Part shown: one piece after another, positions 20,542 to 59,634 of the stretch
Position numbering within the stretch: position 1 is the stretch's first letter
Layout of the letters: each line of letters opens with the position of its first letter
Source: Actinomycetes bacterium
GTDB lineage: Bacteria > Actinomycetota > Acidimicrobiia > Acidimicrobiales > RAAP-2
Length of the DNA: 59,634 nt
Assembly: GCA_021786095.1 (NCBI GenBank)
Contig: JAJYNX010000027.1
Span: 1-59,634 of the forward strand
Direction: 5' to 3'
Program-made: the position numbers and the translations under genes
Notes under the pieces: generated by a model
What the model was told of the DNA's origin: nothing
The model's input: only the letters and a program-made list of their open reading frames with translations
Databases searched by the model: none

Positions 20542-22101
20542 GTGAGAGAGGAGTCGTCCCAGTGGGCCGACGCGCTCGCCCTCCCGCCGGGCGTGGTGAC
20601 GCGCGCGTTCTTCGACTCGCTGACCCAGGGCGTGATGATCGTCGATCCCGCGGGTGTCATCCTCGACCTCAACGCGGCCGCGCTCCAGATCCTGGACCGG
20701 GAGCGCGACTCGCTGGTGGGCCACGGCATCGCCGACCTCCCCCCCGCCGTGGACGAGCGCGGTGAGCCGCTCACCACCGAGACCCGACCGATCGGGGAAG
20801 TCCTGCGCCGAGGCGACCCGATCGCCATGCGCACGATCGGCCTCGACCTGCCCGGTCACGGCCGACGCTGGATCATGGTCCACGACCGTCCCCTACGCGT
20901 GAACGGCCAGCTCGCCGGCGTCTCGAGCTCCTTCATCGACATCACCTCCCTACGCCGCGCCACCGCCACGTCCGACCTCTTCGCCGAGGTGAACCGGTCC
21001 ATGATGCACGAGCGCGACGAGGAGGCGTTCCTCGCACACTTCTGCGACGCGCTCGTCACCATCGGCGGCTACGAGCTCGCGGCCCTCGGCGAGGCGCTCG
21101 TCGACGAGCACCACAGCGTGCGGCTCCTGCACGCCGCTGGGGCGACCCACTACCTCGAGACTCTCGCCGACACCGCGTCGTGGTCCGAGTCCAGCGACAC
21201 CGGACGCGGCGCGCTCGGCACGGCGTTGCGCACGGGCCTGGTCCAGATCTCCCACGAGTTGCCGAACTACGCGTTGTGGCGCGAACGCGCGGAGCAGGTG
21301 GGCTTTCACTCCATGATCGCCCTGCCGCTGACGCTCGGCCACCGCTCGGCGGTCCTCGTGCTGTACGCGCGCGAGCCCCTCGCCTTTCGTGATGAGACGG
21401 TGGTGGCGCGCCTCACCCAAATGGCCGACGAGATCAGCTTCGGCGCCGCCCACCTCGCCACCACCCGCCAGCTCGCGGCCTCGCTGGAGGGGACCCTGCG
21501 CGCGCTCGCGCACCTGACCGAGATCCGCGACCCCTTCACCGCCGACCACCAGAACCGCGTAGCCCAGCTGGCTGCGGCGATCGCGCACGACCTCGGGCTG
21601 GACGAGGAGCTGGTCCACCAGATCTACCAGAGTGGGCTGGTTCTGGACATCGGCAAGTCCAGCGTCCCCGCCGAGATCCTGACGCGTCCGGGACACCTGA
21701 CCGCGCTCGAGTTCTCCATGGTCCAGCGGCACTGCGAGATCGGCGCAGCCATCCTCGAGCGGGCCAACCTGCCCGAACCCATCGTCAGCGTCGCCCGCCA
21801 GCACCACGAGCGCCTCGACGGGTCGGGCTACCCCGATGGATTACGCGGCGATGAGATCAGCCTGCCAGCCCGGGTCGTGATGGTCGCCGACGTCCTCGAA
21901 GCGATGACCCAGCACCGCCCCTACCGACCGGCGCGACGCCTCAAGGACGCTCTGGACCACGTGCGTGAGAACAGCGGGACGCTCTTCGACCCCGACGTCG
22001 TCGCCGCGCTCGACGAGGTGTTCGCCCGGGGCTTCACCTTCGACGACACGACGTGGAGTGCCTCTCCCCTCGGAGCACCGCTGATCCGTGCCGGACGATG
22101 A
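20542..22101 (+). CDS. PAS-GAF-HD-GYP protein with altered HD motif
   Basis: 519 residues. A PAS domain (about 18-135, SLTQGVMIVDPAGVILDLNA) and a GAF-like domain (about 145-310) precede an HD-GYP domain. HD-GYP proteins hydrolyse c-di-GMP at a metal centre. The helix motif is TADHQNRVA, the later histidine RHCEIGAAIL is kept and the signature HHERLDGSGYPDGL is intact. The HD dyad itself reads LDIGK: Leu368 replaces the metal-binding His before Asp369. Activity may be reduced or lost, leaving a sensor or scaffold. The gene is followed by the sigma factor gene on the same strand, 334 bp away. Confidence 0.88.
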   Translation: MREESSQWADALALPPGVVTRAFFDSLTQGVMIVDPAGVILDLNAAALQILDRERDSLVGHGIADLPPAVDERGEPLTTETRPIGEVLRRGDPIAMRTIGLDLPGHGRRWIMVHDRPLRVNGQLAGVSSSFIDITSLRRATATSDLFAEVNRSMMHERDEEAFLAHFCDALVTIGGYELAALGEALVDEHHSVRLLHAAGATHYLETLADTASWSESSDTGRGALGTALRTGLVQISHELPNYALWRERAEQVGFHSMIALPLTLGHRSAVLVLYAREPLAFRDETVVARLTQMADEISFGAAHLATTRQLAASLEGTLRALAHLTEIRDPFTADHQNRVAQLAAAIAHDLGLDEELVHQIYQSGLVLDIGKSSVPAEILTRPGHLTALEFSMVQRHCEIGAAILERANLPEPIVSVARQHHERLDGSGYPDGLRGDEISLPARVVMVADVLEAMTQHRPYRPARRLKDALDHVRENSGTLFDPDVVAALDEVFARGFTFDDTTWSASPLGAPLIRAGR

Positions 22102-22435: not shown

Positions 22436-23227
22436 GTGTCGGTGCGAGATGAGTCGGGGAGTTCGAGGGTCAGCGAGATAACGAGCGACGAGACGGTTGA
22501 CGCACTCTGGGCCCGATATTTCGCGGATCGCTCGCTCGAGAATCGGAATCGTCTCGTTCTGTTCTACGCACCGCTGGTGCGCGTCGTCGCCGGTCGCCTG
22601 GCCAAGCGCATGCACTCCTTTCAGTCCATTCAGGAATTGTGCTCCTGTGGACAATTCGGATTGATCAACGCCGTCGAGCGATTCGACCCGGGCGAGGGTT
22701 TCCAGTTCGCGACCTACGCGACGATTCGCATCCAGGGGGCCATCATCGACGAGTTACGTCGTGACGACATCCTGCCCAAGCGGATGCGCGCGCGCGTGCG
22801 CACCTACCAGGTGGCCCGCGAGGCCCTGGAGAGCGACTACCGCCGCTCGGCGAGCCTGGCGGAGGTGGCCGCGTACCTTGGCACCAGCCTGAGTGAGGTC
22901 GTCGAGCTCGACGACCTCGCCACGACCACGACGTACCTCGTCTCGCTCTCGACGACCGGCGAGGGGCCCGGCAGCGACCTGGCGGGTACGCGACTGGACC
23001 CCAGCGACCACGCGGAGTTGTCGTCCCTGCGCGACGCGGTCAAGGTCGCCCTGCAGCACCTGACCGAGCGCCAGCGCCAGGTCCTGGTTCTGCACTTCCT
23101 CGAGGGGTTCCACAAGAGCGAGATCGCCGACGCCCTGGGCATCGATCGGTCGCGCGTCACCCAGCTCGTCTACCAGGGCCTGCGCAACCTGCGCCGCGAG
23201 CTCGGCGAGCTGCCCACCACGCCGTAG
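22436..23227 (+). CDS. fliA: flagellar sigma factor (FliA/WhiG, sigma-28 class)
   Basis: 263 residues with sigma regions 2, 3 and 4 and no region 1.1. Region 2 contains QELCSCGQFGLINAVERFDP and FATYATIRIQGAIIDELRRD, the FliA/WhiG-type core-binding and -10-recognition region. Region 3 includes RTYQVAREALE. Region 4 ends with TERQRQVLVLHFLEGFHKSE and an HTH (IDRSRVTQLVYQGL). GTG start with AGGAGG 12-13 bases upstream. It is convergent with csrA, only 7 bp apart. The seven flagellar-type promoters in this window are its likely targets. No flgM is visible nearby. Confidence 0.95.
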   Translation: MSVRDESGSSRVSEITSDETVDALWARYFADRSLENRNRLVLFYAPLVRVVAGRLAKRMHSFQSIQELCSCGQFGLINAVERFDPGEGFQFATYATIRIQGAIIDELRRDDILPKRMRARVRTYQVAREALESDYRRSASLAEVAAYLGTSLSEVVELDDLATTTTYLVSLSTTGEGPGSDLAGTRLDPSDHAELSSLRDAVKVALQHLTERQRQVLVLHFLEGFHKSEIADALGIDRSRVTQLVYQGLRNLRRELGELPTTP

Positions 23228-23234
23228 GCCCCGG

Positions 23235-23552
23235 CTAGTCGTCGCGCGGCGGCGGTTGCTCGTCGCGCGACGCGACGGTCGGTACCGGGTCCGCCACCTC
23301 CCCGGCGGGCGAACGCGACCCGGCGCGGCGCGACCCGTACGAGGCCCACGCCGTGGCGTCGGGCGACGCGCTCGCCGACTCGCGGTTCTCCTGGCGAATC
23401 CGCTCGAGCACCTCCTCGCGATCGATGCGCACCTGTTGGGGCGCCTCGATGCCGATCTTCACGCGACCGTTGCCCGAGACCGCCACCACCGTGATGACGA
23501 TGTCGTCGCCGATGAGGATCTTCTGGCCCACCTCGCGCGTGAGGGTCAGCAC
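23235..23552 (-). CDS. csrA: carbon storage regulator CsrA with C-terminal tail
   Basis: 105 residues. The first ~60 are a complete CsrA fold (MLTLTREVGQKILIGDDIVI, KIGIEAPQQVRIDREEV), including the RNA-contacting arginine after APQQV. A Ser/Arg/Pro-rich tail of about 45 residues is longer than usual. CsrA binds GGA motifs in mRNA leaders, represses translation and is sequestered by FliW. GTG start one base after the fliW stop, so they are co-translated; a strong GGA hairpin precedes fliC in this window. Confidence 0.95.
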   Translation of the reverse strand: MLTLTREVGQKILIGDDIVITVVAVSGNGRVKIGIEAPQQVRIDREEVLERIRQENRESASASPDATAWASYGSRRAGSRSPAGEVADPVPTVASRDEQPPPRDD

Positions 23553-23553
23553 C

Positions 23554-24120
23554 TCACTCGCCCCGTTCGTCGGGCAGGGGCGTGGCGACGGACCAGCCGG
23601 CGTCGTGCTCGCTCAGTGCGGGCACGAGCTGATCCGCGCGGCCGGTGCGCCGATTCACCACGAGCGGCGAGTAGAGGTTGGCGGTCGACGCCTCGAGGGG
23701 CTCTCGGGGATGGATGATGGCGAGCACCGCCACGTCGCTCGCGTCGTGAACCTCGAGGTCGTTCGCGGTCGCGGCGTCGATCTCCACCCGATAGTCGGGC
23801 CACAGGTACCCGGGCGAGAGGACGAGGAACGACAGCGCGTCCCACGTCTCGCCGCGCGCGAGCGCGACGCGGTCGGTGCAGCGCAGCCGGGCCACCATCG
23901 ACACCGCGCCGTCGCCCAGCGGCTCCAGGACGAAGTGGCGCGCCTCGCGAAATCCCGGTAGGTCGCGCCGCAGCGTCACCGCCAGCGGCGCCACCGGGGC
24001 GGGCGTCGCCGTCACCACCACGCTCGAGCCCGGCGCCACGGGCGTCGTCGTCGCGCTGCGCCTCGTCGCCGTCACGCTCTTCCCATCCTCACCCGCACGG
24101 GCCTCGTACGCGGTGGACAC
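23554..24120 (-). CDS. fliW: flagellar assembly factor FliW (CsrA antagonist)
   Basis: 188 residues from GTG 24120, chosen because it overlaps the flgL stop (TAGTG). The FliW core runs from DLPGFREARHFVLEPLG through LSFLVLSPGYLWPDYRVEID to NLYSPLVVNRRTGRADQLV. A poorly conserved N-terminal extension of ~50 residues (Thr/Val/Ala-rich) precedes it. FliW binds either flagellin or CsrA, so export of flagellin frees FliW to relieve CsrA repression. Order flgL-fliW-csrA matches Gram-positive flagellar loci. Confidence 0.93.
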   Translation of the reverse strand: MSTAYEARAGEDGKSVTATRRSATTTPVAPGSSVVVTATPAPVAPLAVTLRRDLPGFREARHFVLEPLGDGAVSMVARLRCTDRVALARGETWDALSFLVLSPGYLWPDYRVEIDAATANDLEVHDASDVAVLAIIHPREPLEASTANLYSPLVVNRRTGRADQLVPALSEHDAGWSVATPLPDERGE

Positions 24121-25016
24121 TACAGGAACTTCACGAGCGTCTCGGGGATGGCCTGGGAGGCCGCCCACAGCGCCGCCTGGTAGCTCGTCGTCTCCAGCGA
24201 CAGCTGCGTGGTCGCCGTCGCCACGTTGACGTTCTCCAGGGAGGCCTGGGACGACTGGACCGCCGCGATCTGCGAAGTGAGGGCCGCCCCGGCGCTGGAC
24301 GCCATCTGGGACGACTCGCCCAGGACGGCGCTGGCTCCCTGGGCCCCGGCGATCACCGCGTCGAGCGCGTCGAGCGCGGTCGAGAGGCTGGCCGCGCTCG
24401 GCGCGCCGCTCGCCAGCGCGCTCGACGCCGCCGAGAGCGTCGCGAACACGTTGGTCGCGCCGCTTCCGAACAGCGCGGTGCCCGGCACCGACACCACGAG
24501 ACTCTCCCCCGAGCCGGCGCCCGGTCCCGCGATCACGGTCGGGCTCTGCGTGGTGCCGAGGAACGTACCGCTCGTGTCGTAGGCCTGGGGCGAGGCCGAG
24601 GTCCCGGCGAAGATGGCCCGACCCTCGAACTGGGTGTTGGCCAGCGACAACAGGTTCGCGGCCACCCCGCTCAGCTGCGTGCCGAGGGCCTGGTAGCCGA
24701 CGGCGTTCTGCGTACCCTGGTTGATGGCCTGCAGCAGCAGCGAGCGCGCCGACTGCATCGACGCGAGGGCGCTATTGGCCGCGCCGTTGGCGACGCCGAG
24801 CCACGAGGTGGCCAGGTCGACGTTGGACTGCCAGCTCGTCAGCTGCGTGGCCTGGCTCGACAGGGCCAGCACCTGGGTCACCGCCGCCGGGTTGTCCGAC
24901 GGCTTGGTCAGGACCTGGCCCGAGCCGAGTTGCATCTGCAGCTCGGCGATGCTCGCCGCCTGCGCCGTCAACTGGCCGGAGAGCGTGGCGATGAGTGCGT
25001 CACTGGAGAGGGCCAC
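24120..25016 (-). CDS. flgL: hook-filament junction protein FlgL (HAP3)
   Basis: 298 residues. The flagellin-like N-terminal helix (LIATLSGQLTAQAASIAELQ, SGQVLTKPSDNPAAV) and C-terminal helix (LENVNVATATTQLSLETTSY) are conserved and bracket a short variable domain containing QFEGRAIFAGTS. It joins FlgK to the filament. GTG start one base after the flgK stop. Length is typical of compact FlgL proteins. Confidence 0.93.
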   Translation of the reverse strand: MALSSDALIATLSGQLTAQAASIAELQMQLGSGQVLTKPSDNPAAVTQVLALSSQATQLTSWQSNVDLATSWLGVANGAANSALASMQSARSLLLQAINQGTQNAVGYQALGTQLSGVAANLLSLANTQFEGRAIFAGTSASPQAYDTSGTFLGTTQSPTVIAGPGAGSGESLVVSVPGTALFGSGATNVFATLSAASSALASGAPSAASLSTALDALDAVIAGAQGASAVLGESSQMASSAGAALTSQIAAVQSSQASLENVNVATATTQLSLETTSYQAALWAASQAIPETLVKFL

Positions 25017-26995: not shown

Positions 26996-27023
26996 GTGAC
27001 GGCCCGGGCTCGCCCGCAGTTGA
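26996..27023 (-). promoter_or_regulatory. flagellar sigma-28-type promoter for flgN-flgK-flgL-fliW-csrA
   Basis: Minus strand: TCAA (27020-27023), 16 bases, GCCGTCAC (26996-27003). One of seven sites with the same spacing; it is also close to the published WhiG/FliA consensus (TAAA-N15/16-GCCGATAA). The predicted start point is at or within a few bases of the flgN GTG. Confidence 0.75.
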
Positions 27024-27027
27024 GGGG

Positions 27028-30607: not shown

Positions 30608-30635
30608 ACTACGTCTCGCCCGGCGCCGGAGTTGA
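30608..30635 (-). promoter_or_regulatory. flagellar sigma-28-type promoter for flhA unit, overlapping flhB stop
   Basis: Minus strand: TCAA (30632-30635), 16 bases, GACGTAGT (30608-30615). The octamer contains the TAG stop codon of flhB, so promoter and coding end are superimposed. Spacing is identical to the other six sites. Confidence 0.7.
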
Positions 30636-31742
30636 GAACCACCCGGCGCCCGGCGCCGGGCCCGCCATGCGGTGCACCTCGCGAAACGACCGCGCGGTGG
30701 GCGTGAGTGCGTACACGAAGGCCAGCAGCTGGGCCACCGCGGTGTAGAGACGGGCCGGCACCAGCTCGTCGATCTCGCACGACGCGTGCAGGGCCCGCGC
30801 CAGCGGGGGGTTCTCCACCAGCACCACGCCGCAGCGCCGCGCGTGCGCGCGAATCGCGACGGCCACCAGGTCCTCCCCCTTGGCCACGACGCGCGGCGCG
30901 ACGTCGGTGGCGCGGTCGTACGCGAGGGCGACCGCAAAGTGGGTGGGGTTCGTCACGACGACGTCGGCCCGGGCCACCGCGGCCATGACGTGCATGCGCG
31001 AGAGGCGCCGCGCCCGGCTGCGCAGAGCCCGGCGCACCTCGGGATTGCCCTCGCTCTCGCGGCGCTCGTCCTTCACCTCCTGGCGGGTCATGCGCACCTC
31101 GCGGTTGTAGGAGCGGCGCTGGAAGAAGTAATCGGCCCCGGCGACCACCAGCGCCACGATCCCGATCACGCGCAGCAGCTGCATGATGATCGGTGCCGTC
31201 GCGCTGAGGGTGCTCTCCAGGGGCAGCGTCGCGCCGCCGAGCACCGCGGTCACCAGCTGTCGCTCGATGTCGTAGGCGACGACGGCGAGGACCGCCACCT
31301 TGAGCGACGTCTTGAGCAGCGTCCAGGCCCCCTGGCGCGAGACGACGCGCTGCAGCCCGCTCTTGGGCGAGATGCGCGAGAGCCGCACGCCCAAGGCCTG
31401 GGGGGTCACGTGCAGGCCCACCTGGGCCGTGGCGATCGCCACGGCCACGACGCCGCTGACCAGGGTCACTGGCAGGGCCGCGAACGCCGCCGTCGCGAGC
31501 CCCTGGCCGACCAGCGCCACCGCGCCCGCACGCGTCGGGTGCGCCATCGCCTGGACGACACGCTGGACGAAACCGTCGACGCGCGTGGACGCCAGGCCGC
31601 CCAGCCACGGCAGGAGTCCGGTCACCGCGACCAGGCCGGCCCATCCACCAACCTCGGGCGAGCGGGCCACGGTGCCCTTCTCGCGCACCTCCTTGCGACG
31701 CTTGGGGGTCGCCTTCTCCGTCTTCTGGGAGGAGTCGGCCAT
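30609..31742 (-). CDS. flhB: flagellar export switch protein FlhB
   Basis: 377 residues from ATG 31742, which shares a base with the fliR stop (TGATG). The N-terminus EKATPKRRKEVREKGTVARS, four membrane helices and the autocleavage motif NPTH (in VVVTNPTHFAVAL) are all present. Cleavage at NPTH switches export from rod/hook to filament substrates. The C-terminal tail ends in a Pro/Gly-rich stretch whose coding DNA also carries the flhA promoter. Confidence 0.96.
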   Translation of the reverse strand: MADSSQKTEKATPKRRKEVREKGTVARSPEVGGWAGLVAVTGLLPWLGGLASTRVDGFVQRVVQAMAHPTRAGAVALVGQGLATAAFAALPVTLVSGVVAVAIATAQVGLHVTPQALGVRLSRISPKSGLQRVVSRQGAWTLLKTSLKVAVLAVVAYDIERQLVTAVLGGATLPLESTLSATAPIIMQLLRVIGIVALVVAGADYFFQRRSYNREVRMTRQEVKDERRESEGNPEVRRALRSRARRLSRMHVMAAVARADVVVTNPTHFAVALAYDRATDVAPRVVAKGEDLVAVAIRAHARRCGVVLVENPPLARALHASCEIDELVPARLYTAVAQLLAFVYALTPTARSFREVHRMAGPAPGAGWFSTPAPGET

Positions 31743-47491: not shown

Positions 47492-47519
47492 TCTACGTCC
47501 CCGCGCGCCGCGGAGTTGA
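47492..47519 (-). promoter_or_regulatory. flagellar sigma-28-type promoter for the flgB-flgE operon
   Basis: Minus strand: TCAA (47516-47519), 16 bases, GACGTAGA (47492-47499), between the end of the large glycosyltransferase gene and flgB. Same spacing as the other six sites. Confidence 0.75.
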
Positions 47520-47536
47520 GACGTCGCCGCGACCCG

Positions 47537-51126: not shown

Positions 51127-51523
51127 CGCTCTGCTCCGTCACGGTCACCGCTCGCCGCCACGCCTCGTGGATGGGGTGGAAGAGATCCGCGCACTCGCGC
51201 ACCAGCACCACACTCTTCTCGAGGTTGGCGCGCACGAGGTGCTGCTCGATGAAGGCGTACACCGACTCGAGCTCACGACCGCCCGGAAAACCGTCCGGCT
51301 CGAGCGCGACGCGCAGGAGCCGCACGCTGCGCTGGGCGTGCTGGAGGTTCTCGTCGCACGTCGCGTAGTCCACCTGCTCGATCGCGGTCTCGGCGCGAGC
51401 CAGATCGGCCGCGATCCGCTCGCAGATCATGATCAGCAGATGGGGGCCGTCCGCGGTGTGCACCGCCTGACCCTGGTAGACGAGCGCCGGATTGCGAGCG
51501 ATCACGGGGAACCTACCCGACAT
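51104..51523 (-). CDS. fliS: flagellin export chaperone FliS
   Basis: 139 residues, all-helical. Features of FliS are visible: GPHLLIMICERIAADLARAE, AIEQVDYATCDENLQHAQRS, LESVYAFIEQHLVRANLEKS. Binds the flagellin C-terminus; in other species it also cooperates with FliW. ATG start lies 11 bp inside the fliD 3' end. Confidence 0.9.
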   Translation of the reverse strand: MSGRFPVIARNPALVYQGQAVHTADGPHLLIMICERIAADLARAETAIEQVDYATCDENLQHAQRSVRLLRVALEPDGFPGGRELESVYAFIEQHLVRANLEKSVVLVRECADLFHPIHEAWRRAVTVTEQSGDATHVG

Positions 51524-54023
51524 TGAGCGTCGAGCCCGAGGGGAACAGCGACGAGGACGAGGACGAGGACGAGGAGTTCGCCAGGAACTTGCTCTCTGAG
51601 GTCAGCTGGACCAGCGCGGCCTCCATGGCGGCGAACTCCTGGGCCAACATGGCCTGCTGGGTGCTGATTAGCTGCTTCTGCTGGGCGATCTCACTGGTCA
51701 CGTTGGTCAGGGTCGCGTTCACCCCGCTCAGTGCCGCCGGAATCTGCCCACCGGGCGAGACCACCTGGTTCGCCACGTAGGCCAGCCCCTGGGCCAGGCC
51801 GGGACTGTAGTTCACCGTGCCGAGCGGCGTCGAGGACGTCACGCCCGTCGTCGTGACCTGGAGCACCAGCCCGTTCGCGGGATTCGCGGGATCAGCCAGT
51901 GAGAGCATCTGGCCGACGCCGGTCGCGGCCTGCCCGTTGATGGTTCCCGCGACGTCGACACCCGTGTAGGTAGTCCCGGACGTCGTGAGCCCCAACTGGT
52001 CGGTGCCGGACGCTCCCACCGTGAAACTCGCGGCCGAGCCGTAGGCGGCCGAGCTCATCTGCACGTAGTAGGAGCCACCGACGTCGACCAGTGAGGCGGA
52101 CACCCCGATGCCCGCGGCCGCGAGGGCGCTGTTCATGCCCGCCACCACCGACGACACCGTCTCGCCGGCGCTCGCCGCGTAGGTCGCCGTCGCGGTGCCC
52201 GAGGTGATCGAGTACGTCTCGGCCGTGCTCAGCGTCGACGACGGCGCGGCGAAGGCCACCGAGCCGGTGTCCAGGGCCTGCGCGGCCGACTGGCTGATCG
52301 TGACGGCGTAGCTGCCCGGCGTCGTCTGGTCACTGGCCCCCGCCACGCTGACCTCGCCCGCGTAGGTCGAACTCGACGGCGTGAACGTCCCGCCCTCGGT
52401 GAACATGGACCGCACGGCCGCCGGATTCGCGTCGTAGGCGGTGGCGAACGCCGTCGGATTGAACGTGATGGTCCCCGAGGACGTGATGGCCAGGCCGGCG
52501 GACTCGCCCGGCGTCCCGTCCGAGCCGGCGGCCGACGTGCCCACCGCGTTGCCCACGATCGCGAGGACCCGCTGAGCCAGCGCGTTCAGCGACGTCACCC
52601 CGTTGAGGGGGCCCGCGACGCCCGTCGTGGGGTCGTACGCGGTGTCCGTCGCCAGCGTGCTCAGCAGCGTGTTGGCCGCGTTCACCAGGGCCGAGACCTG
52701 GCTGGCCATCTGGGAGCCGTCGGGTGACACGGTGAGGGTCACCGGCGTCGCGCTCACCTGGCCGAGGTCGACGGTGATCCCGGGAAGGAGGCCCGCCACC
52801 TGATTCGTCGAGGAGGTGACCTGCGGACCCCCCACACCCCCCACCGACACGATCGAGTCCTGGGCCGCGGTCGTGGTCTGCATCGCCCCGAGCGAGGACG
52901 ACGCGAAGGCCGCCACGTCGATGGTCGCCGCGCCAGTCAGGCCGGTCGCGTTCGACGTGATCTCCAGCGCGTACTGGTTGCTCCCCTCCTCGAGCGCGTT
53001 GGCCGTCACGCCGACGTTGGCCCCGTTGATGGCGTTGACCACCGACGCGAGTGAGCCGTTGCCCACCGAGACGTTCTGCGCTGTCATGGAGCCGAGGGCG
53101 AGGGGGCCCGATAGGTTCGCGTTCAGCGTGCCTCCGCTGCCCGACGTCAGGGTCACCGTCGTCGTACCGGTCCCCGCGATGTCGGTCACCGTGTTCGCAG
53201 TGCCGTCAACGGTGATGATCCCGTTGGTGCCGTAGACCAGCGCACTGGTCGACAGACCCAGGGTGGCGAGCGCGGTACCGCCCGTGATCTGTAACGACGC
53301 GCTCGATCCCTGCTGCGTCGTGGCGAGCGCCAGGTCGCCGCCCGAGGTCAGCGTGGCGCTGAGCGTCCCGCCCGACGCCTGGGAGATGGCCGCCGCCAGC
53401 TGGGTAGGCGTGTAGGTGCCCGACGCGATGGTCACCGTCGACGACGTGCCGTTGATGGTGGCCGTCACCGTGTCGTTGGTGGAGCCGATCGTGGTGCTCG
53501 CCGCGAGCGGTGTCGTACCCACGACGCCGGCGCCCGCCGACGCCTGGGTCACGCTGATCGTGTGCGCCCCGACCGCGAGCCCCGACTGGCCCGCGAAGGA
53601 GACGATACCGAGCGCCGCGCCCCCCGATCCCACGAGGTAGTCGCCGCTCGCGACGACGTCGCTCGTCGCCGCGACGGTGCCCGCCGAGATCTGGGTGGAG
53701 CCCGTGGCCAGCTGGTCCACCGCCAGCGAGATCGACCCCGCCTGGCTGCCCGACGTGACCGAGCCGGTCGCCACCGAGGAGTTGGACGACGCCACCGAGT
53801 ACGCCTGGTCGTAGGCCAACGGGCTCGCGAGAGCGTCGCCCGCCTGCTGCAGCGCCAGCAGCTCGGAGTTGATGGTCTGGTAGTCCGAGGCCTGCGTCGA
53901 CAGGCTGGCCTGCTGGGCCTGCAGCTGCTGGAGTGGCTGCTCGTAGGCCGCCAGCTCCGCGTTGATGATCTGACTGGTGTTCAATCCCGACAGCAGGCCG
54001 CCAAAGCTCACCGGTGCTGACAT
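51513..54023 (-). CDS. fliD: flagellar filament cap protein FliD
   Basis: 836 residues from ATG 54023 (GGAGGAG upstream); large for FliD. N-terminal signature SFGGLLSGLNTSQIINAELA and the coiled coil (PLQQLQAQQASLSTQASDYQ) are typical. The extended middle is Ser/Thr/Gly-rich with repeated beta-type modules. The C-terminus has the FliD helix (NVTSEIAQQKQLISTQQAML) and ends in a poly-Ser stretch encoded by a 6-bp DNA repeat near 51549-51575. Exported cap; the expanded Ser/Thr domains would be exposed. Confidence 0.92.
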   Translation of the reverse strand: MSAPVSFGGLLSGLNTSQIINAELAAYEQPLQQLQAQQASLSTQASDYQTINSELLALQQAGDALASPLAYDQAYSVASSNSSVATGSVTSGSQAGSISLAVDQLATGSTQISAGTVAATSDVVASGDYLVGSGGAALGIVSFAGQSGLAVGAHTISVTQASAGAGVVGTTPLAASTTIGSTNDTVTATINGTSSTVTIASGTYTPTQLAAAISQASGGTLSATLTSGGDLALATTQQGSSASLQITGGTALATLGLSTSALVYGTNGIITVDGTANTVTDIAGTGTTTVTLTSGSGGTLNANLSGPLALGSMTAQNVSVGNGSLASVVNAINGANVGVTANALEEGSNQYALEITSNATGLTGAATIDVAAFASSSLGAMQTTTAAQDSIVSVGGVGGPQVTSSTNQVAGLLPGITVDLGQVSATPVTLTVSPDGSQMASQVSALVNAANTLLSTLATDTAYDPTTGVAGPLNGVTSLNALAQRVLAIVGNAVGTSAAGSDGTPGESAGLAITSSGTITFNPTAFATAYDANPAAVRSMFTEGGTFTPSSSTYAGEVSVAGASDQTTPGSYAVTISQSAAQALDTGSVAFAAPSSTLSTAETYSITSGTATATYAASAGETVSSVVAGMNSALAAAGIGVSASLVDVGGSYYVQMSSAAYGSAASFTVGASGTDQLGLTTSGTTYTGVDVAGTINGQAATGVGQMLSLADPANPANGLVLQVTTTGVTSSTPLGTVNYSPGLAQGLAYVANQVVSPGGQIPAALSGVNATLTNVTSEIAQQKQLISTQQAMLAQEFAAMEAALVQLTSESKFLANSSSSSSSSSLFPSGSTLNVG

Positions 54024-54121: not shown

Positions 54122-54958
54122 CTACTGCAGGATCTTCTGGGCCAGGTTGGGCAACTGCTGCGCCTGGTAGAGCACCGACATGCCCGCCTGCTCCAGAATC
54201 TGCAAGGACGCGAACTGGGTCGTGGCCTGCGCGACATTCACGTCGACCAGGTTCGCGTGGGCCGCCTGGATGTTCTCCTGAGCGGTCGTCAGGTTCGCCG
54301 ACAACGAGGTCATCTGGTTCTGGGTCGCGCCCACGTCGGCCGCCTGGAGGGCGACGGTGGAGATGGCCGACTGCACCGCCGTCATCGCCGCCTCGGCCGA
54401 GGAGACCGTGCCGATGCTGACAGCCGTGCTGTTCACGCCCAGCGCCGTCGAGCTCGACGACGCGATGGTGATGACGATCTGGTCGCTCGCCGTGTTGTAG
54501 GGGCCCACCTGGAACGTCTCACCCGCGTAGGATCCGTTCAGCAGGGCCGTCCCACCGAAGTTCGTGCTCGCCGAGATCTGGTCGAGTTCGCTCTGCAGTG
54601 AGGCGAACTCCGCCTGGGACGCTGACAGCGTCGTGGCGCTCTGCGTGCCGCCGTTGGCCACCTGCGTCGCCAGCGTGTTCATCGTCTGGAGGATCGCCGC
54701 CTCCTGGCCCAGCGCACCCTGGGCGGTCTGCAGCACCGACACCGCGGTCTGGACGTTGCTGATCGCCTGGGTGTAGCCGTTGCCCTCCTCCTGCAGGTAC
54801 TGGCCCACCACGTAGCCCGAGGGGTTGTCCGCGGCCGTCTGGATCTGCAGACCCGACGACAGCTGGCTCACGACCTGGGATAGTGAGGTGTTCGTGGCGT
54901 CGAGGTTGTTGTACGCATTCACCGCCGCCGCGTTGTAGTTGATATCGATTCCCGCCAT
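54122..54958 (-). CDS. fliC: flagellin
   Basis: 278 residues from ATG 54958 (AGGAGG 7 bases upstream). A compact flagellin of D0/D1 domains: N-terminal helix (AVNAYNNLDATNTSLSQVVS, SSGLQIQTAADNPSGYVVGQ) and C-terminal helix (LVDVNVAQATTQFASLQILE, then QAGMSVLYQAQQLPNLAQKI). The central part is short and Ser/Thr-rich (ITIASSSSTALGVNSTAVS), offering O-glycosylation sites. Preceded by its own promoter and a CsrA-type hairpin. Confidence 0.96.
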   Translation of the reverse strand: MAGIDINYNAAAVNAYNNLDATNTSLSQVVSQLSSGLQIQTAADNPSGYVVGQYLQEEGNGYTQAISNVQTAVSVLQTAQGALGQEAAILQTMNTLATQVANGGTQSATTLSASQAEFASLQSELDQISASTNFGGTALLNGSYAGETFQVGPYNTASDQIVITIASSSSTALGVNSTAVSIGTVSSAEAAMTAVQSAISTVALQAADVGATQNQMTSLSANLTTAQENIQAAHANLVDVNVAQATTQFASLQILEQAGMSVLYQAQQLPNLAQKILQ

Positions 54959-55020: not shown

Positions 55021-55047
55021 CTACGGACCACCGCGCCCGGGAATTGA
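55020..55047 (-). promoter_or_regulatory. flagellar sigma-28-type promoter for fliC
   Basis: Minus strand: TCAA (55044-55047), 16 bases, TCCGTAGG (55020-55027). The predicted start near 55012-55014 puts the GGA hairpin at the very 5' end of the transcript. Same spacing as the other six sites. Confidence 0.8.
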
Positions 55048-55073
55048 GTGGGCCGCGAGCCCCGAGCCGGCGA

Positions 55074-58000
55074 CTACCGAGACGCCGAGGTGCGGCGCCG
55101 GTCCTCGATCGCCCGCGCCCGCGCGCGCACGTCGCGCGCCACGACCGACGGCGCCAGCAGCCGGCGTGCCCGCGCGCGCGCCCGGGTCGCCAGGGCCTCG
55201 CCGCGGGCCGGCTGGGCGGCCATCGTGCGCATCGCGCGCGCCGCGCCGTCCAGGTCCGGCTCGGCCCACTGCCCGCCCGGCACGCATTGGCGCTCGGCCC
55301 CGGGGATAGGGACCACGGCGCACGGCACGAAGAGGCAACTGCCCTCATCGTGCACCTCCTCGGCGTAGGAGTGGCGAGTGGCGATCGTCGCCGCGCCACT
55401 CATCATGGCGCGCGAGAGGAGCCGGCCGGTCCCCTCGCTGCGGTGCAGCGAGACCACGCACAGACGCTGATCCCCACTCTCATCGAGGATCCGGAGTCGT
55501 CGCCCATCGCCGACCTCGCGCACCTCGACGTCGGGGCGTCGCGCCGCCGCCTCGATCAGGCGAGCGTGCTCCGCAGGGTAGCGTGCCGCGTGGAGCGTCT
55601 CGATCACCAGGTTATGGCCGGCGTGCGGACGAAACGCCTCGCAGTACGCGGCGAGCACCCCGTCGGGATTCTGCCGTTCGACCCCCGTCTGGAAATCCAC
55701 GCTCGCCACGAACGTGCAGCGCGCGTCGTCGAGGGCGCGACGACGCGTCGCGGCGAGAGCGGGGAGGGCCACCGATGAGACCCGACCGACGGACGCGCGC
55801 CCGACGGCCCGGGCCGCGAAGCGCGACGGTGCCCAGACCTCGTGCAGCATCCGTGCCGCCGTGGCCATCATCGGTGAGGGGACGTCGTAGTCCCACGGCC
55901 ACACCCCGATCATGTAACGCCCCTCGAAGGGAGCCACCCCCACGTCCATCGCGAAGTTCGCCAGATCCTCGGGTGACAGGACGAGCAGTGTCGTCTCGAA
56001 GGGGTAGTCGCCGCCGTCGCGGTGCGACCACTCCCAGGGACCCCGCTCACTCGTCGCGCAGTACGACGTGGTCGAGACCGACAGTCCGTATCCGGTGAGC
56101 GCGGTGGCGAGCATCCGGGCCGCGTGTGCCTCGTCGCTGCTGCCCGTGAAGTCTCCCACGATGTTGACGCCCCCACGCCGCGGTCTGTCGCTCACCGCCG
56201 GGGTCTCCCTCGGCCGACCACGCGGCCGACGCGACGACCGCACCGCCGCCAGCGGCGTCGCCTCGCGCGGCGTCGGTGCCTCGGCCACCACCGGGGACTC
56301 GTCGCGTCGCTCGAGGAGCCCGGGGGCGAGGCGACGAACCTGCTCGTCCACCACGGCGCGAGCGGCGGGCTCCAGCCGACCCCGCGCGTCGTGCACGCCC
56401 GCTACCACGCGAGCGTCCGCGAAGCTCCCGTACGCGGCGGCCCCGGCCAGGACGCGCACGACGGGGTCGAGCTCGCGATTGGCGGACATCGCCACGAGCG
56501 GACAGGCGGACGCCAGCGCGCGGGCGCGTAGCCGCGCGGACCAGACGAGCGCCCGGGGCACCGACAAGCGGGGCCCTAGGCGTCCCGCCGCCGCGAGCGG
56601 CTCGAGGCGTTCGGGGAACCGCTCCCAGACGCCCTCCAGGACCGCGTCGGCGAGGTCGGGCGGCTGGCGCAGGAGTCGTCCGAGCACCGCCACGAGGTCA
56701 GCGGCGTCCAGCGCCTCGGCGACCTCGGACGCACTGCGCCCCGCCCGCGCGAGCCACCCGACCAGATCGCCGACGTCCGCCTCGAGCACGCCGTCACGGC
56801 GGATCGCCTCGAGCACGACGTCCGCCGCCTCACTCCAGCGACCGAGGGAGGCCAACGCCTCGCCGCGCAGTGCGGCGAGCATGTGAGTGGCGTACTCGAC
56901 GCCGTCGTCGTCGCGCCCCCGCGAGGGGACCCGTGCCAGTATCGCCAGGCCGGCGTCGGCGTCGCCCATCGCGATGCGCGTGGTCCCCTCGGCGATGTCC
57001 GCCGCTATCTGGAGCACCGACGAGCCGCGCAGCTCGTCCACGCACGACAGAGCCTCGTCGAAACGTCCCCGTCGCGTCAGGATGTTGATGAGGTTGCGCA
57101 GCGCCAGACGCCGCGTGATCGGATCGCCCGACGCCGACGCCGCCTCGCGCAGGGCCTCCACGGCGTCGTCGCTGTGGCCGGCCGATTCGAGGGCGCGTCC
57201 GTAGTTCATCAACGCGTACGCGTGACTGAGGTCGTCATCGTCCAGGGCGGCGCGCGCCAGTAGCAGGTTACGCTGCGCCTTGCCCCTCGTCCCGAAGACG
57301 TCGGCGGCGTAGCCGTGATGCAGGAGCCGAACCCCGCTCGCGTACCCGATCCGTAGTCGTCGGGCGGGGTCGTCGGCCGCGACGACCTGCTCGTGGAGCC
57401 GGTGGCGCCACGTAGCGGCGTCTCGGCGGAAGAGGCGCACTGCCGTGTGGACCGAGCGGGCGTTTCCCGCGCCGTGGAGATTCTCGATCGCCACGAGGTA
57501 GGCCTCCACGTCCGAGCGCCGGTCGCCGAGGAGGGTGCGCACGGCCGACGGATTCGCCAGCAGCTCCTCGTCGGCGTCGAGTGACAGGATCCAGGTGCCG
57601 CGCGCCTGCGCCATCGCCACGTTGCGCGCTCGCGCGAAGGAGTCATCCCAGTAGCCCTGGAAGACGCGCGCGCCTCTCTGCCTGGCGATGGTCACGGACC
57701 GATCGATCGAACCCGTGTCGTACACCACGATCTCGTCGACGAGGTCCGCCACGGAGTCGAGGGCCGCCCCGAGCATGTCCTCCTCGTCCCTCACGATGAG
57801 ACACGCCGAGACGAGACACGGCGGCACCCCGTCGTCGCCGTCCCAGAGTCGGCGAAGGCGGAGCCGATTCTCCTCCACCAGCGCGGGCCACGAACCACCC
57901 CACGCGGCGACGCTCGCACCTCCCACGTGACGCACGGGCAGGCCATCGAGCGCGTGGAGGCGATAGCCGTCGCGGCGCAGCCTCCGGCACAGGTCGTCGT

Positions 58001-58571
58001 CCGCGAGAGCACCGGCGACGTAGCCCTCATCGAAGCCGCCGCAGCCGCGAAAGGCCTCCGTGCGAAGAGCCAGGCAGCAGCCGTCGAGTTGGTCGATCGG
58101 GATCGCCTCGTCCGGTGAGCCTCCCTCCCATCCGCCCGCCAAGCCTCGCGTCACGCCACGCCTATCGCCGCGAGAGCGAGTGCTCGACGCCGTCGCGGAC
58201 TCGTCACCCGCTCGCGGGCCAGCGGCGCCCACGGTCGGGTCTTCGAGTGGCCGCACCAGTTCGTCACGCCATCCCTCGCCGACGACGGCGTCACTGTGCA
58301 GGAAGACCAGCACGTCGCCACGAGCGGCGGCGGCGCCCTGATTGCAGGCGACCGCGAAGCCCTGATTAACGGGATTGGTCACGAGCCGAACCCACTCGTA
58401 ACGGCGCAACTGCTCGGCGGTCGCGTCACGCGACGCGTTGTCGATCACCACCACCTCGTCACTCGGCGCCAGCGTCGGCCGCAGTGCGTCGAGACAGGCC
58501 CGGGTGTGTTCCCACGCGTTCCACACGGGTATCACCACCGATACCGTGCGTCGCTCCGCCCCAGTCGTCAC
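55074..58571 (-). CDS. GT2-GT2-TPR-GT4 giant glycosyltransferase upstream of flagellin
   Basis: 1165 residues. Domain order: a GT2 (1-250; VSVVIPVWNAWEHT, LVFLHSDAVVGEG), a second GT2 (255-410; SACLIVRDEEDMLGAALDSV, ILSLDADEELL), TPR-like helical repeats (~420-720; HAYALMNYGRALESAGHSDD), a basic linker, and a C-terminal glycosyltransferase (~790-1165; GGVNIVGDFTGSSDEAHAAR, LCVVSLHRSEGTGRLLSRAM). GT-TPR fusions modify proteins in other bacteria. Position just upstream of fliC and a flagellar-type promoter point to flagellin glycosylation (inference). GTG start lies 7 bases past the -10, suggesting a leaderless mRNA. Confidence 0.87.
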   Translation of the reverse strand: MTTGAERRTVSVVIPVWNAWEHTRACLDALRPTLAPSDEVVVIDNASRDATAEQLRRYEWVRLVTNPVNQGFAVACNQGAAAARGDVLVFLHSDAVVGEGWRDELVRPLEDPTVGAAGPRAGDESATASSTRSRGDRRGVTRGLAGGWEGGSPDEAIPIDQLDGCCLALRTEAFRGCGGFDEGYVAGALADDDLCRRLRRDGYRLHALDGLPVRHVGGASVAAWGGSWPALVEENRLRLRRLWDGDDGVPPCLVSACLIVRDEEDMLGAALDSVADLVDEIVVYDTGSIDRSVTIARQRGARVFQGYWDDSFARARNVAMAQARGTWILSLDADEELLANPSAVRTLLGDRRSDVEAYLVAIENLHGAGNARSVHTAVRLFRRDAATWRHRLHEQVVAADDPARRLRIGYASGVRLLHHGYAADVFGTRGKAQRNLLLARAALDDDDLSHAYALMNYGRALESAGHSDDAVEALREAASASGDPITRRLALRNLINILTRRGRFDEALSCVDELRGSSVLQIAADIAEGTTRIAMGDADAGLAILARVPSRGRDDDGVEYATHMLAALRGEALASLGRWSEAADVVLEAIRRDGVLEADVGDLVGWLARAGRSASEVAEALDAADLVAVLGRLLRQPPDLADAVLEGVWERFPERLEPLAAAGRLGPRLSVPRALVWSARLRARALASACPLVAMSANRELDPVVRVLAGAAAYGSFADARVVAGVHDARGRLEPAARAVVDEQVRRLAPGLLERRDESPVVAEAPTPREATPLAAVRSSRRPRGRPRETPAVSDRPRRGGVNIVGDFTGSSDEAHAARMLATALTGYGLSVSTTSYCATSERGPWEWSHRDGGDYPFETTLLVLSPEDLANFAMDVGVAPFEGRYMIGVWPWDYDVPSPMMATAARMLHEVWAPSRFAARAVGRASVGRVSSVALPALAATRRRALDDARCTFVASVDFQTGVERQNPDGVLAAYCEAFRPHAGHNLVIETLHAARYPAEHARLIEAAARRPDVEVREVGDGRRLRILDESGDQRLCVVSLHRSEGTGRLLSRAMMSGAATIATRHSYAEEVHDEGSCLFVPCAVVPIPGAERQCVPGGQWAEPDLDGAARAMRTMAAQPARGEALATRARARARRLLAPSVVARDVRARARAIEDRRRTSASR

Positions 58572-58578
58572 CGTAGGA

Positions 58579-58606
58579 GTTACGGCCCAATTGTTACGAA
58601 AATTTA
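58579..58606 (-). promoter_or_regulatory. flagellar sigma-28-type promoter for the 1165-residue glycosyltransferase
   Basis: Minus strand: TAAA (58603-58606), 16 bases, GCCGTAAC (58579-58586). The best match of the seven to the classical TAAA-N15/16-GCCGATAA. The octamer ends 7 bases before the GTG, implying leaderless translation. Confidence 0.8.
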
Positions 58607-58650
58607 GCCTGAATGAATACGCGCCACAGACGTTTCACATGGTGACGGCC

Positions 58651-58663: not shown

Positions 58664-59194
58664 GTGATCGATTCGATCGACAAAATCGAGGCTTTGCTTC
58701 ATCTCACTCAACCGATAACTGGCGACACCCCAACGACAACGTTGCGGCGGTGGCGCAATGAGCTCGTCGAGGCGTCGGTCGCTGTCTCCTACGCCAACAG
58801 CATCCTGGGGCTGGACCTCAGCCTGCTCGAGCGCGCGGCCACGTCGACGCGCGCCGACGTGCTGCAGTACCTCATCGACGAGCTGCCCCATCTGCTGAGC
58901 GATGGATGGGTGGGCGGCGGCTGGTCGCTCTCACCCGACGCCAGTGCCTCGGTCGCCGCCGCGGCCCTCCTGACTCGCCAGGATGCCGCGCTCTACGATC
59001 TACACGCCGCCGTCGCCAGCTGTGACTTCGCCGACCCCGAGGTCGTGAACGACTTGCGCGAGCGCGTCGAGGTACAGCGCGAGCGCCTGCGCGCGCTGCG
59101 CGACCAACTCGAAAGCCGCCTGCGCGACGTCCAGAGCGCCGTGCGCCACCAGTACGCGACCGGTGTCGCGTCGGTCGACGACTGGCTCACGTAG
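58664..59194 (+). CDS. RsiG-like (anti-sigma WhiG family) helical protein, c-di-GMP motif not conserved
   Basis: 176 residues. The architecture resembles the Streptomyces RsiG family: an N-terminal helical pair (LRRWRNELVEASVAVSYANS) with the SYxxxxL landmark at residues 42-43, LIDELPHLLSDG in the middle, and a long C-terminal coiled coil ending QYATGVASVDDWLT, like the RRYxxGxxxVDxLL end of RsiG. RsiG binds c-di-GMP through E-x3-S-x2-R-x3-Q-x3-D; aligned on Ser42, the others read Ser38, Asn45, Gly49 and Ser53, so the motif is lost. It may be a c-di-GMP-independent anti-sigma factor. Family call is by eye and tentative. Confidence 0.6.
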   Translation: MIDSIDKIEALLHLTQPITGDTPTTTLRRWRNELVEASVAVSYANSILGLDLSLLERAATSTRADVLQYLIDELPHLLSDGWVGGGWSLSPDASASVAAAALLTRQDAALYDLHAAVASCDFADPEVVNDLRERVEVQRERLRALRDQLESRLRDVQSAVRHQYATGVASVDDWLT

Positions 59195-59285: not shown

Positions 59286-59634
59286 TCACTCGCCCGCCGC
59301 TGCCTCGGACGGCTCATCAACGACGACGCGATCCCGTCCGGCGGCCTTGGCCCGGTAGAGTGCCGCGTCGGCGCGAGCCATGACCAAGTCGGGCGTCTCG
59401 CCGCGGTGGCGTACCGCCAGCCCCACGCTCACGCTCACCGTCGGCCGTTCCGCGGACGACACGGACACGTTCTGGCGCATGCGCTCGGCGACGCTCGCGG
59501 CGACGGCGACGTCGACGTCGGCCAGGACCACCAGGAACTCCTCGCCCCCGTAGCGAAAGACGACGTCGGTGGGCCGCACGCTCTGGGTGAGCGCAGCGGC
59601 GACGTGCTGGAGCACCCGATCCCCCATCGCGTGG
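59286..59634 (-). CDS. diguanylate cyclase GGDEF domain, C-terminal part (cut by window edge)
   Basis: The frame is open to the last base, so the N-terminus is missing. The visible part carries YGGEEF with an RPTD I-site five residues before it, and the later motifs SVSVGLAV and ADAALYRAKAAGRDRV. Active cyclase signature with product inhibition. Convergent with the RsiG-like gene, 91 bp apart. The missing sensor part prevents further assignment. Confidence 0.9.
   Translation of the reverse strand, partial: HAMGDRVLQHVAAALTQSVRPTDVVFRYGGEEFLVVLADVDVAVAASVAERMRQNVSVSSAERPTVSVSVGLAVRHRGETPDLVMARADAALYRAKAAGRDRVVVDEPSEAAAGE

Follow-up and report, generated by a model that had tools for sequence, protein, structure and literature searches.

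The window analysed here, meaning the whole stretch of 59,634 nucleotides, contains a flagellar gene cluster, a FliA/WhiG-type sigma factor gene and a small gene whose product resembles RsiG, the c-di-GMP-dependent anti-sigma factor of WhiG in Streptomyces. The locus raises the question of what restrains the flagellar sigma factor, and whether an RsiG-type protein might do so with its ligand site replaced. If a whole natural clade has dispensed with the ligand site, comparing it with canonical RsiG would reveal the parts needed for sigma binding and show how a ligand-armed regulator can turn ligand-free; its protein would also be a candidate for the restraint on the flagellar sigma factor in actinobacteria lacking FlgM (absence of FlgM: PMC4255298 and PMC10746217, both available as partial texts). 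The background taken below from PMC8325347 likewise reflects a partial text of that paper.

RsiG homology and predicted fold

58664..59194, + strand: motif-less RsiG homologue, 176 aa (open reading frame, seven-member clade, homology to canonical RsiG, AlphaFold2 model and fold search)
58733..58843, + strand: first long helix, residues 24-60 of the predicted coiled coil (AlphaFold2 secondary structure)
59036..59161, + strand: second long helix, residues 125-166 (AlphaFold2 secondary structure)

The reading frame was confirmed, with GTG as its start codon, in a genome (G000) of 2.1 Mb, 117 contigs and 96% completeness, and the gene was found to be kept in six more distinct genomes (G430, G408, G020, G035, G296 and G644; n = 7 in total). 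Close relatives of the protein were few, namely those of G430 (L009, MAG Actinomycetes bacterium DX1.bin64; 76% identity), L010 (Acidimicrobiaceae palsa_658, the same genome as G408; 52%), and G020 and G035 from the same genus as the window (51% and 50%, respectively). Profile searches added G408, with a protein identical to that of L010, G644, and G296, a member of a different family in the order. The dN/dS ratio (Nei-Gojobori, ten pairs among five members) was 0.05-0.48 in nine of the ten pairs, several of them with dS values above 1, and dS was saturated in the tenth. A maximum-likelihood tree, rooted at the midpoint for drawing only, grouped all seven members together, set apart by a branch with 100/100 support.

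Homology to RsiG was traced through more distant relatives. The first search for relatives had already picked up weak similarity (27-28%, E 1.4e-5 to 4.6e-4) to proteins of five further genomes in the order; all five carry one or two exact RsiG motifs and 9-10 of the 10 motif residues, and the one tested against the PDB, L004, matched S. venezuelae RsiG (6pfj) at 3.5e-17. A profile of these five canonical RsiGs had the window gene as its sole match in G000 (E 3.8e-10), and hhalign comparison of the motif-less alignment with the five-sequence canonical alignment gave a probability of 96.6 and an E value of 4.8e-10. In the reverse direction, the motif-less profile matched 19 canonical RsiGs (E 2.3e-12 to 9.2e-6) and three motif-less members in 397 genomes of the order. 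The profile search that the sequence-only reading had proposed was therefore mixed: positive with the canonical RsiG profile and between profiles, as well as in the fold search below, and negative when the window protein was searched against Pfam and NCBIfam (libraries that may lack an RsiG model) or when the single protein (phmmer) or the motif-less profile alone was searched against the PDB. Matches of the window protein to MerR-DNA-bind, DUF883 and BshB2 all fell below cut-off and were rejected, a weak match of the motif-less profile to flagellin helices in the PDB (E 0.009) was judged to be a helix effect, and an RsiG match at 1.7e-25 was not counted as evidence because its profile contained canonical RsiGs.

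The AlphaFold2 model, obtained with a three-sequence alignment (mean pLDDT 76.7, pTM 0.71), predicted the antiparallel coiled coil, long loop and C-terminal helix by which RsiG is recognised, the C-terminal helix being short and residues 80-99 having pLDDT below 50. Foldseek ranked S. venezuelae RsiG chains (6pfj/6pfv) in positions 1-3 with probability 1.00, the best probability among the other listed entries being 0.66; by E value these RsiG matches were weak (0.02-0.04), and TMq was 0.51-0.54. VIA-align scored RsiG at Z 10.9 and 10.6, the next entry reaching 8.2; for helical folds, Z below 13 calls for caution. The structural match of the model to RsiG is thus weak alone but specific, and the long coiled coil that the sequence-only reading had expected was recovered as a prediction, with RsiG as the best fold match.

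Loss of the c-di-GMP motifs and conservation of the loop and C-terminal tail

58775..58822, + strand: degenerate c-di-GMP motif 1, with S38, S42, N45, G49 and S53 at the positions of E, S, R, Q and D (alignment with 34 canonical RsiGs)
59078..59125, + strand: degenerate c-di-GMP motif 2, with R139, R143, R146, E150 and R154 at the positions of E, S, R, Q/H and D (alignment with canonical RsiGs)
58904..58963, + strand: near-invariant loop, residues 81-100, GWVGGGWSLSPDASASVAAA (16 of 20 columns identical in all seven members, mean pairwise identity 0.92; modelled with pLDDT below 50)
59132..59191, + strand: C-terminal tail ending YATGVASVDDWLT, aligned to RRYRxGEASVDSLL of canonical RsiGs (alignment)

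Canonical RsiGs carry the motif E-x3-S-x2-R-x3-Q-x3-D in helix 1 and again in helix 5, and the window protein has neither. The sequence-only reading had noticed the substitutions around a retained S42 in helix 1 (S38, N45, G49 and S53), and these were found as described; it understated the loss, since the helix-5 motif is gone too, with only its central Arg kept. Two of the ten motif residues were kept in six members including the window protein and one in G644, compared with 8-10 in canonical RsiGs (n = 34, all from the same order; His was accepted for Gln). The survivors are the helix-1 Ser (7/7) and the helix-5 Arg (6/7), so that every member has lost 8-9 of the ten contact residues, both Asp residues and the helix-1 Arg among them. 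In helix 5, Arg takes the place of Glu in five of the seven proteins and of Asp in six, and in helix 1 the Glu and Ser positions are both Ser in all seven, the remaining helix-1 replacements differing between members. Taken together with the profile comparisons, homology to twin-motif RsiG and loss of both motifs seem to us hardly open to doubt.

According to PMC8325347, the motifs are strikingly well conserved in 130 twin-motif homologues, except for Gln to His in the first, guanine specificity is attributed to the motif Asp and Arg, and the single-motif RsiGs of basal Actinobacteria retain the motif. The suggestion that the window protein might be ancestral did not hold up, because its layout of twin helices, long loop and C-terminal tail is that of twin-motif RsiG and the basal single-motif proteins possess the motif; most simply, the loss in this clade would be derived. 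Literature searches, which covered partial texts and listings, found no published description of a motif-less RsiG. Absence of c-di-GMP as the cause of the loss was rejected on account of six GGDEF matches in G000, where c-di-GMP is thus probably made.

The two best conserved stretches of the motif-less protein are the loop and the C-terminal tail (mean pairwise identity 0.82 over residues 164-175, n = 7), ahead of helix 1 (0.62) and helix 5 (0.46). In canonical RsiGs the same columns gave 0.65 for the tail, 0.48 for helix 1 and 0.25 for the loop, the last figure coming from alignment columns with many gaps and from a set that is more diverse overall. In RsiG, a long loop that is critical for binding to WhiG becomes ordered with the help of c-di-GMP, and this loop, like the C-terminal regions, touches sigma domains 2 and 4 (PMC8325347). 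Compared region by region, the counterparts of the sigma-binding regions are thus the most constrained, while the ligand-binding residues are gone.

The flagellar sigma factor and the proposed role

22436..23227, + strand: FliA/WhiG-type sigma factor, proposed partner (best NCBIfam matches WhiG and FliA_WhiG, E about 5e-48; alignment)
51513..54023, - strand: FliD (annotation)
54122..54958, - strand: flagellin (Flagellin_N and Flagellin_C, matched with a somewhat offset stretch of this frame)
55074..58571, - strand: glycosyltransferase family 2, divergent neighbour of the RsiG-like gene (neighbour in 6/6 genomes with a visible flank)

The presence of a FliA/WhiG-type sigma factor and the flagellar setting, with flagellin, FliD and other flagellar genes clustered with the RsiG-like gene, were both as the sequence-only reading had stated. 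The sigma factor scored below the NCBIfam cut-offs (163.7 and 164 bits against 189.6 and 343 for TIGR02479 and NF004935) and is, judged by its sequence, a divergent relative of WhiG/FliA; the region between domains 2 and 4 is also shorter in the partner sigmas, by 12 alignment columns. WhiG contacts c-di-GMP through K57, G61 and R62 (PMC8325347), positions that we infer, by spacing, to lie on the LVKYVAGR stretch. In the seven partner sigmas the K57 position is Arg in five and Lys in two, the G61 position Asn in five and Gly in two, and the R62 position Arg in all seven, compared with Lys in nine, Gly in eight and Arg in nine of the nine aligned canonical WhiGs (of 18 found). Since R62 is kept throughout, residual use of c-di-GMP is possible. 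Just upstream of the sigma gene lies a PAS-GAF-HD domain protein gene (HD-GYP-like, 20542-22101, + strand), also seen in G430, and beside it lie csrA, fliW and a flagellin-domain (FlgL-like) gene (23235-25016, - strand), an arrangement as in the control of flagellin translation in Bacillus.

The glycosyltransferase, flagellin and FliD genes adjoin the RsiG-like gene in all six genomes with a visible flank, the contig of G020 ending at this point. In the window, G408 and G644, some 33-36 kb with the flagellar cluster separate the RsiG-like gene from the sigma gene, the contig of G644 carrying the sigma and other flagellar genes; in G296 the sigma gene follows the RsiG-like gene on the same strand within the cluster, about 170-300 bp away depending on the start codon. 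Of 37 genomes of the genus, the same three (G000, G020 and G035) had FlhA and the sigma (E up to 1e-20) along with the RsiG-like gene, none of which turned up in the remaining 34, and sigma and FlhA were present in each of G000, G020, G035, G408, G296 and G430. As the RsiG-like gene sits inside the flagellar cluster, these co-occurrences are not independent and may be explained by joint transfer or loss. The canonical RsiG profile had one match per genome in all seven motif-less genomes and detected no second RsiG in them. Across 24 further genomes of the order, a WhiG-type sigma and canonical RsiG went together, both being present in the same 18, at an E cut (up to 2.1e-30) chosen after the gap between 2.1e-30 and 4.4e-23 had been seen. 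FlhA was found in three of those 18 (G051, G056 and G059), with RsiG, sigma and FlhA on separate contigs, and a fourth genome with FlhA, G039, had neither canonical RsiG nor a WhiG-type sigma at these cuts. FlgM (PF04316) matched in none of 61 genomes including G000, in agreement with the earlier remark that the region has no flgM, and was found in the controls E. coli, B. subtilis and T. maritima; the genomes studied are drafts, 86-97% complete where stated, so that such absences are not proof. Actinobacterial classes without FlgF/FlgG are also without FlgM (PMC10746217), and FlgM-like proteins are absent where WhiG orthologues may drive motility (PMC4255298), as far as the available parts of these papers go.

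From the homology, the clade-wide motif loss, the co-occurrence and linkage with the sigma gene and the searches that found neither FlgM nor a second RsiG, together with the predicted fold, we infer that the protein is probably a derived anti-sigma factor of the RsiG type that acts specifically on the flagellar FliA/WhiG-type sigma and no longer uses c-di-GMP. Taken separately, action as an anti-sigma factor on this sigma is likely, and independence from c-di-GMP only a little less so. In classical RsiG, a c-di-GMP dimer bound in the two motifs helps to order the long loop, which contacts sigma domains 2 and 4 together with the C-terminal region; in the motif-less protein the near-invariant loop may order itself or fold on the sigma, binding it directly. 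The protein would then stand in for FlgM, and release of the sigma might be set by the abundance of the protein or by some flagellar signal. A more specific version, in which the rewritten loop replaces the c-di-GMP dimer in positioning RsiG on the sigma and the protein has become the counterpart of FlgM in actinobacterial flagella without it, with a signal from flagellar assembly perhaps lifting the inhibition, is offered tentatively. What the sequence-only reading had assembled (RsiG homology, substituted residues, coiled coil, flagellar setting, sigma factor and lack of FlgM) agrees with this account in all but the word ancestral.

Other explanations were weighed against the same evidence. 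The pattern of replacements might indicate a switch of ligand, the re-surfaced groove with its now basic helix-5 face holding another nucleotide, a phosphate or an acidic partner that would switch the anti-sigma factor on or off; the recurrent Arg for Glu (5/7) and for Asp (6/7), the central Arg (6/7) and the uniform Ser at the helix-1 Glu and Ser positions (7/7) are in keeping with this. The other helix-1 replacements vary among members, unlike a conserved site, and no ligand suggests itself, so we consider such a switch rather unlikely. That c-di-GMP is still bound in the classical mode through non-canonical residues is very improbable: R62 is kept in the sigma, c-di-GMP enzymes occur in the genome and the convergent neighbour (59286-59634, - strand, interrupted by the contig end) is a GGDEF protein, but 8-9 of ten contacts are lost in every member, including the guanine-specificity Asp and the helix-1 Arg (PMC8325347), and only the window and G430 showed a GGDEF gene directly alongside, neighbours elsewhere being partly annotated.

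It is also unlikely that sigma binding was lost and the protein took another flagellar role, for example by assisting flagellin or its glycosylation, as a chaperone or as a partner. The constant adjacency of the glycosyltransferase and flagellin genes (6/6) and the weak flagellin-helix match, itself probably a helix effect, would fit such a role; conservation is highest in the loop and tail, the regions through which RsiG contacts sigma, and the RsiG-like gene adjoins the sigma gene in G296, both of which speak against a loss of sigma binding. In G430, the GGDEF neighbour (L009 10527-12482, - strand) is fused to an ODP-type metallo-beta-lactamase domain and is possibly an oxygen-sensing diguanylate cyclase.

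With twin-motif RsiG (anti-sigma factor of WhiG, S. venezuelae, PDB 6pfj and 6pfv) the window protein shares sequence homology across the twin-helix protein, the predicted coiled coil, the long loop, the C-terminal tail and a proposed partner of the FliA/WhiG family; it differs in lacking both motifs, in its rewritten, near-invariant loop and in the location of its gene within a flagellar cluster. Because E(X)3S(X)2R(X)3Q(X)3D, a defining feature of RsiG, was looked for in both helices and found in neither, the protein is better filed as a motif-less RsiG homologue that probably works alike than as RsiG. The single-motif RsiGs of Rubrobacter (PDB 7lq2-7lq4) and Thermoleophilia belong to the same superfamily and are short and homodimeric with the motif intact, whereas the window protein has two long helices per chain and no motif; for the Rubrobacter protein a non-sporulation role, in type IV pili, has been proposed, and in 2021 RsiG-WhiG was described as the sole known sigma/anti-sigma pair targeted by c-di-GMP (PMC8325347). 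FlgM, the anti-sigma factor of FliA/SigD, has the role proposed here, holding a flagellar sigma; compared by sequence, the window protein differs in having no PF04316 match and no sigma-promoter-like site facing its gene.

Promoter-like elements of the flagellar cluster

26998..27024, - strand: element with one mismatch, upstream of an unannotated gene before flgK
30610..30636, - strand: element with one mismatch, upstream of flhA
47494..47520, - strand: exact element upstream of the FlgB-like rod gene (helped to define the pattern)
55022..55048, - strand: exact element upstream of flagellin (helped to define the pattern)
58581..58607, - strand: exact element for the divergent glycosyltransferase gene, pointing away from the RsiG-like gene

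A 27-nt element, CTMAAYT-N13-GNMCGTW, was derived by comparing the regions upstream of flagellin (six genomes) and flgB (five genomes). The window holds three exact copies and two with one mismatch, shuffled sequences averaging 0.11 and none of 100 reaching five; this test is partly circular, as two of the five sites defined the pattern and the site at 58581-58607 influenced the M at position 3. The element is similar in length and letters to the FliA/WhiG consensus, which we take to be TAAA-N15-GCCGATAA, and is likely a variant FliA/WhiG promoter, presumably read by the sigma encoded at 22436-23227. The classical promoter, in the form assumed here, had no exact match with spacers of N14-16 and one site with 10 of 12 letters at N14-17, and a TAGG..ACGG motif above the RsiG-like gene was discarded, as it overlaps the 27-nt element on the other strand.

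No element within two mismatches faced the RsiG-like gene in any of the seven genomes (158 bases upstream only in G020). On the opposite strand, towards the glycosyltransferase, the element was exact in four of seven and had two mismatches in G408, with none within 250 bases in G296 and G644, a one-mismatch copy lying slightly further up in G296. Among six sigma genes, one (G296) was faced by a two-mismatch copy at the end of the RsiG-like gene, probably by chance. As no convincing element faces either gene, the RsiG-like gene and the sigma gene both seem to lie outside the sigma's own regulon. An exact element was also found upstream of a GFO/IDH/MocA oxidoreductase gene near the RsiG-like gene (L071 11864-12892, - strand, assigned by Pfam on this copy; L072 15750-16760, + strand), perhaps serving flagellin sugar synthesis.
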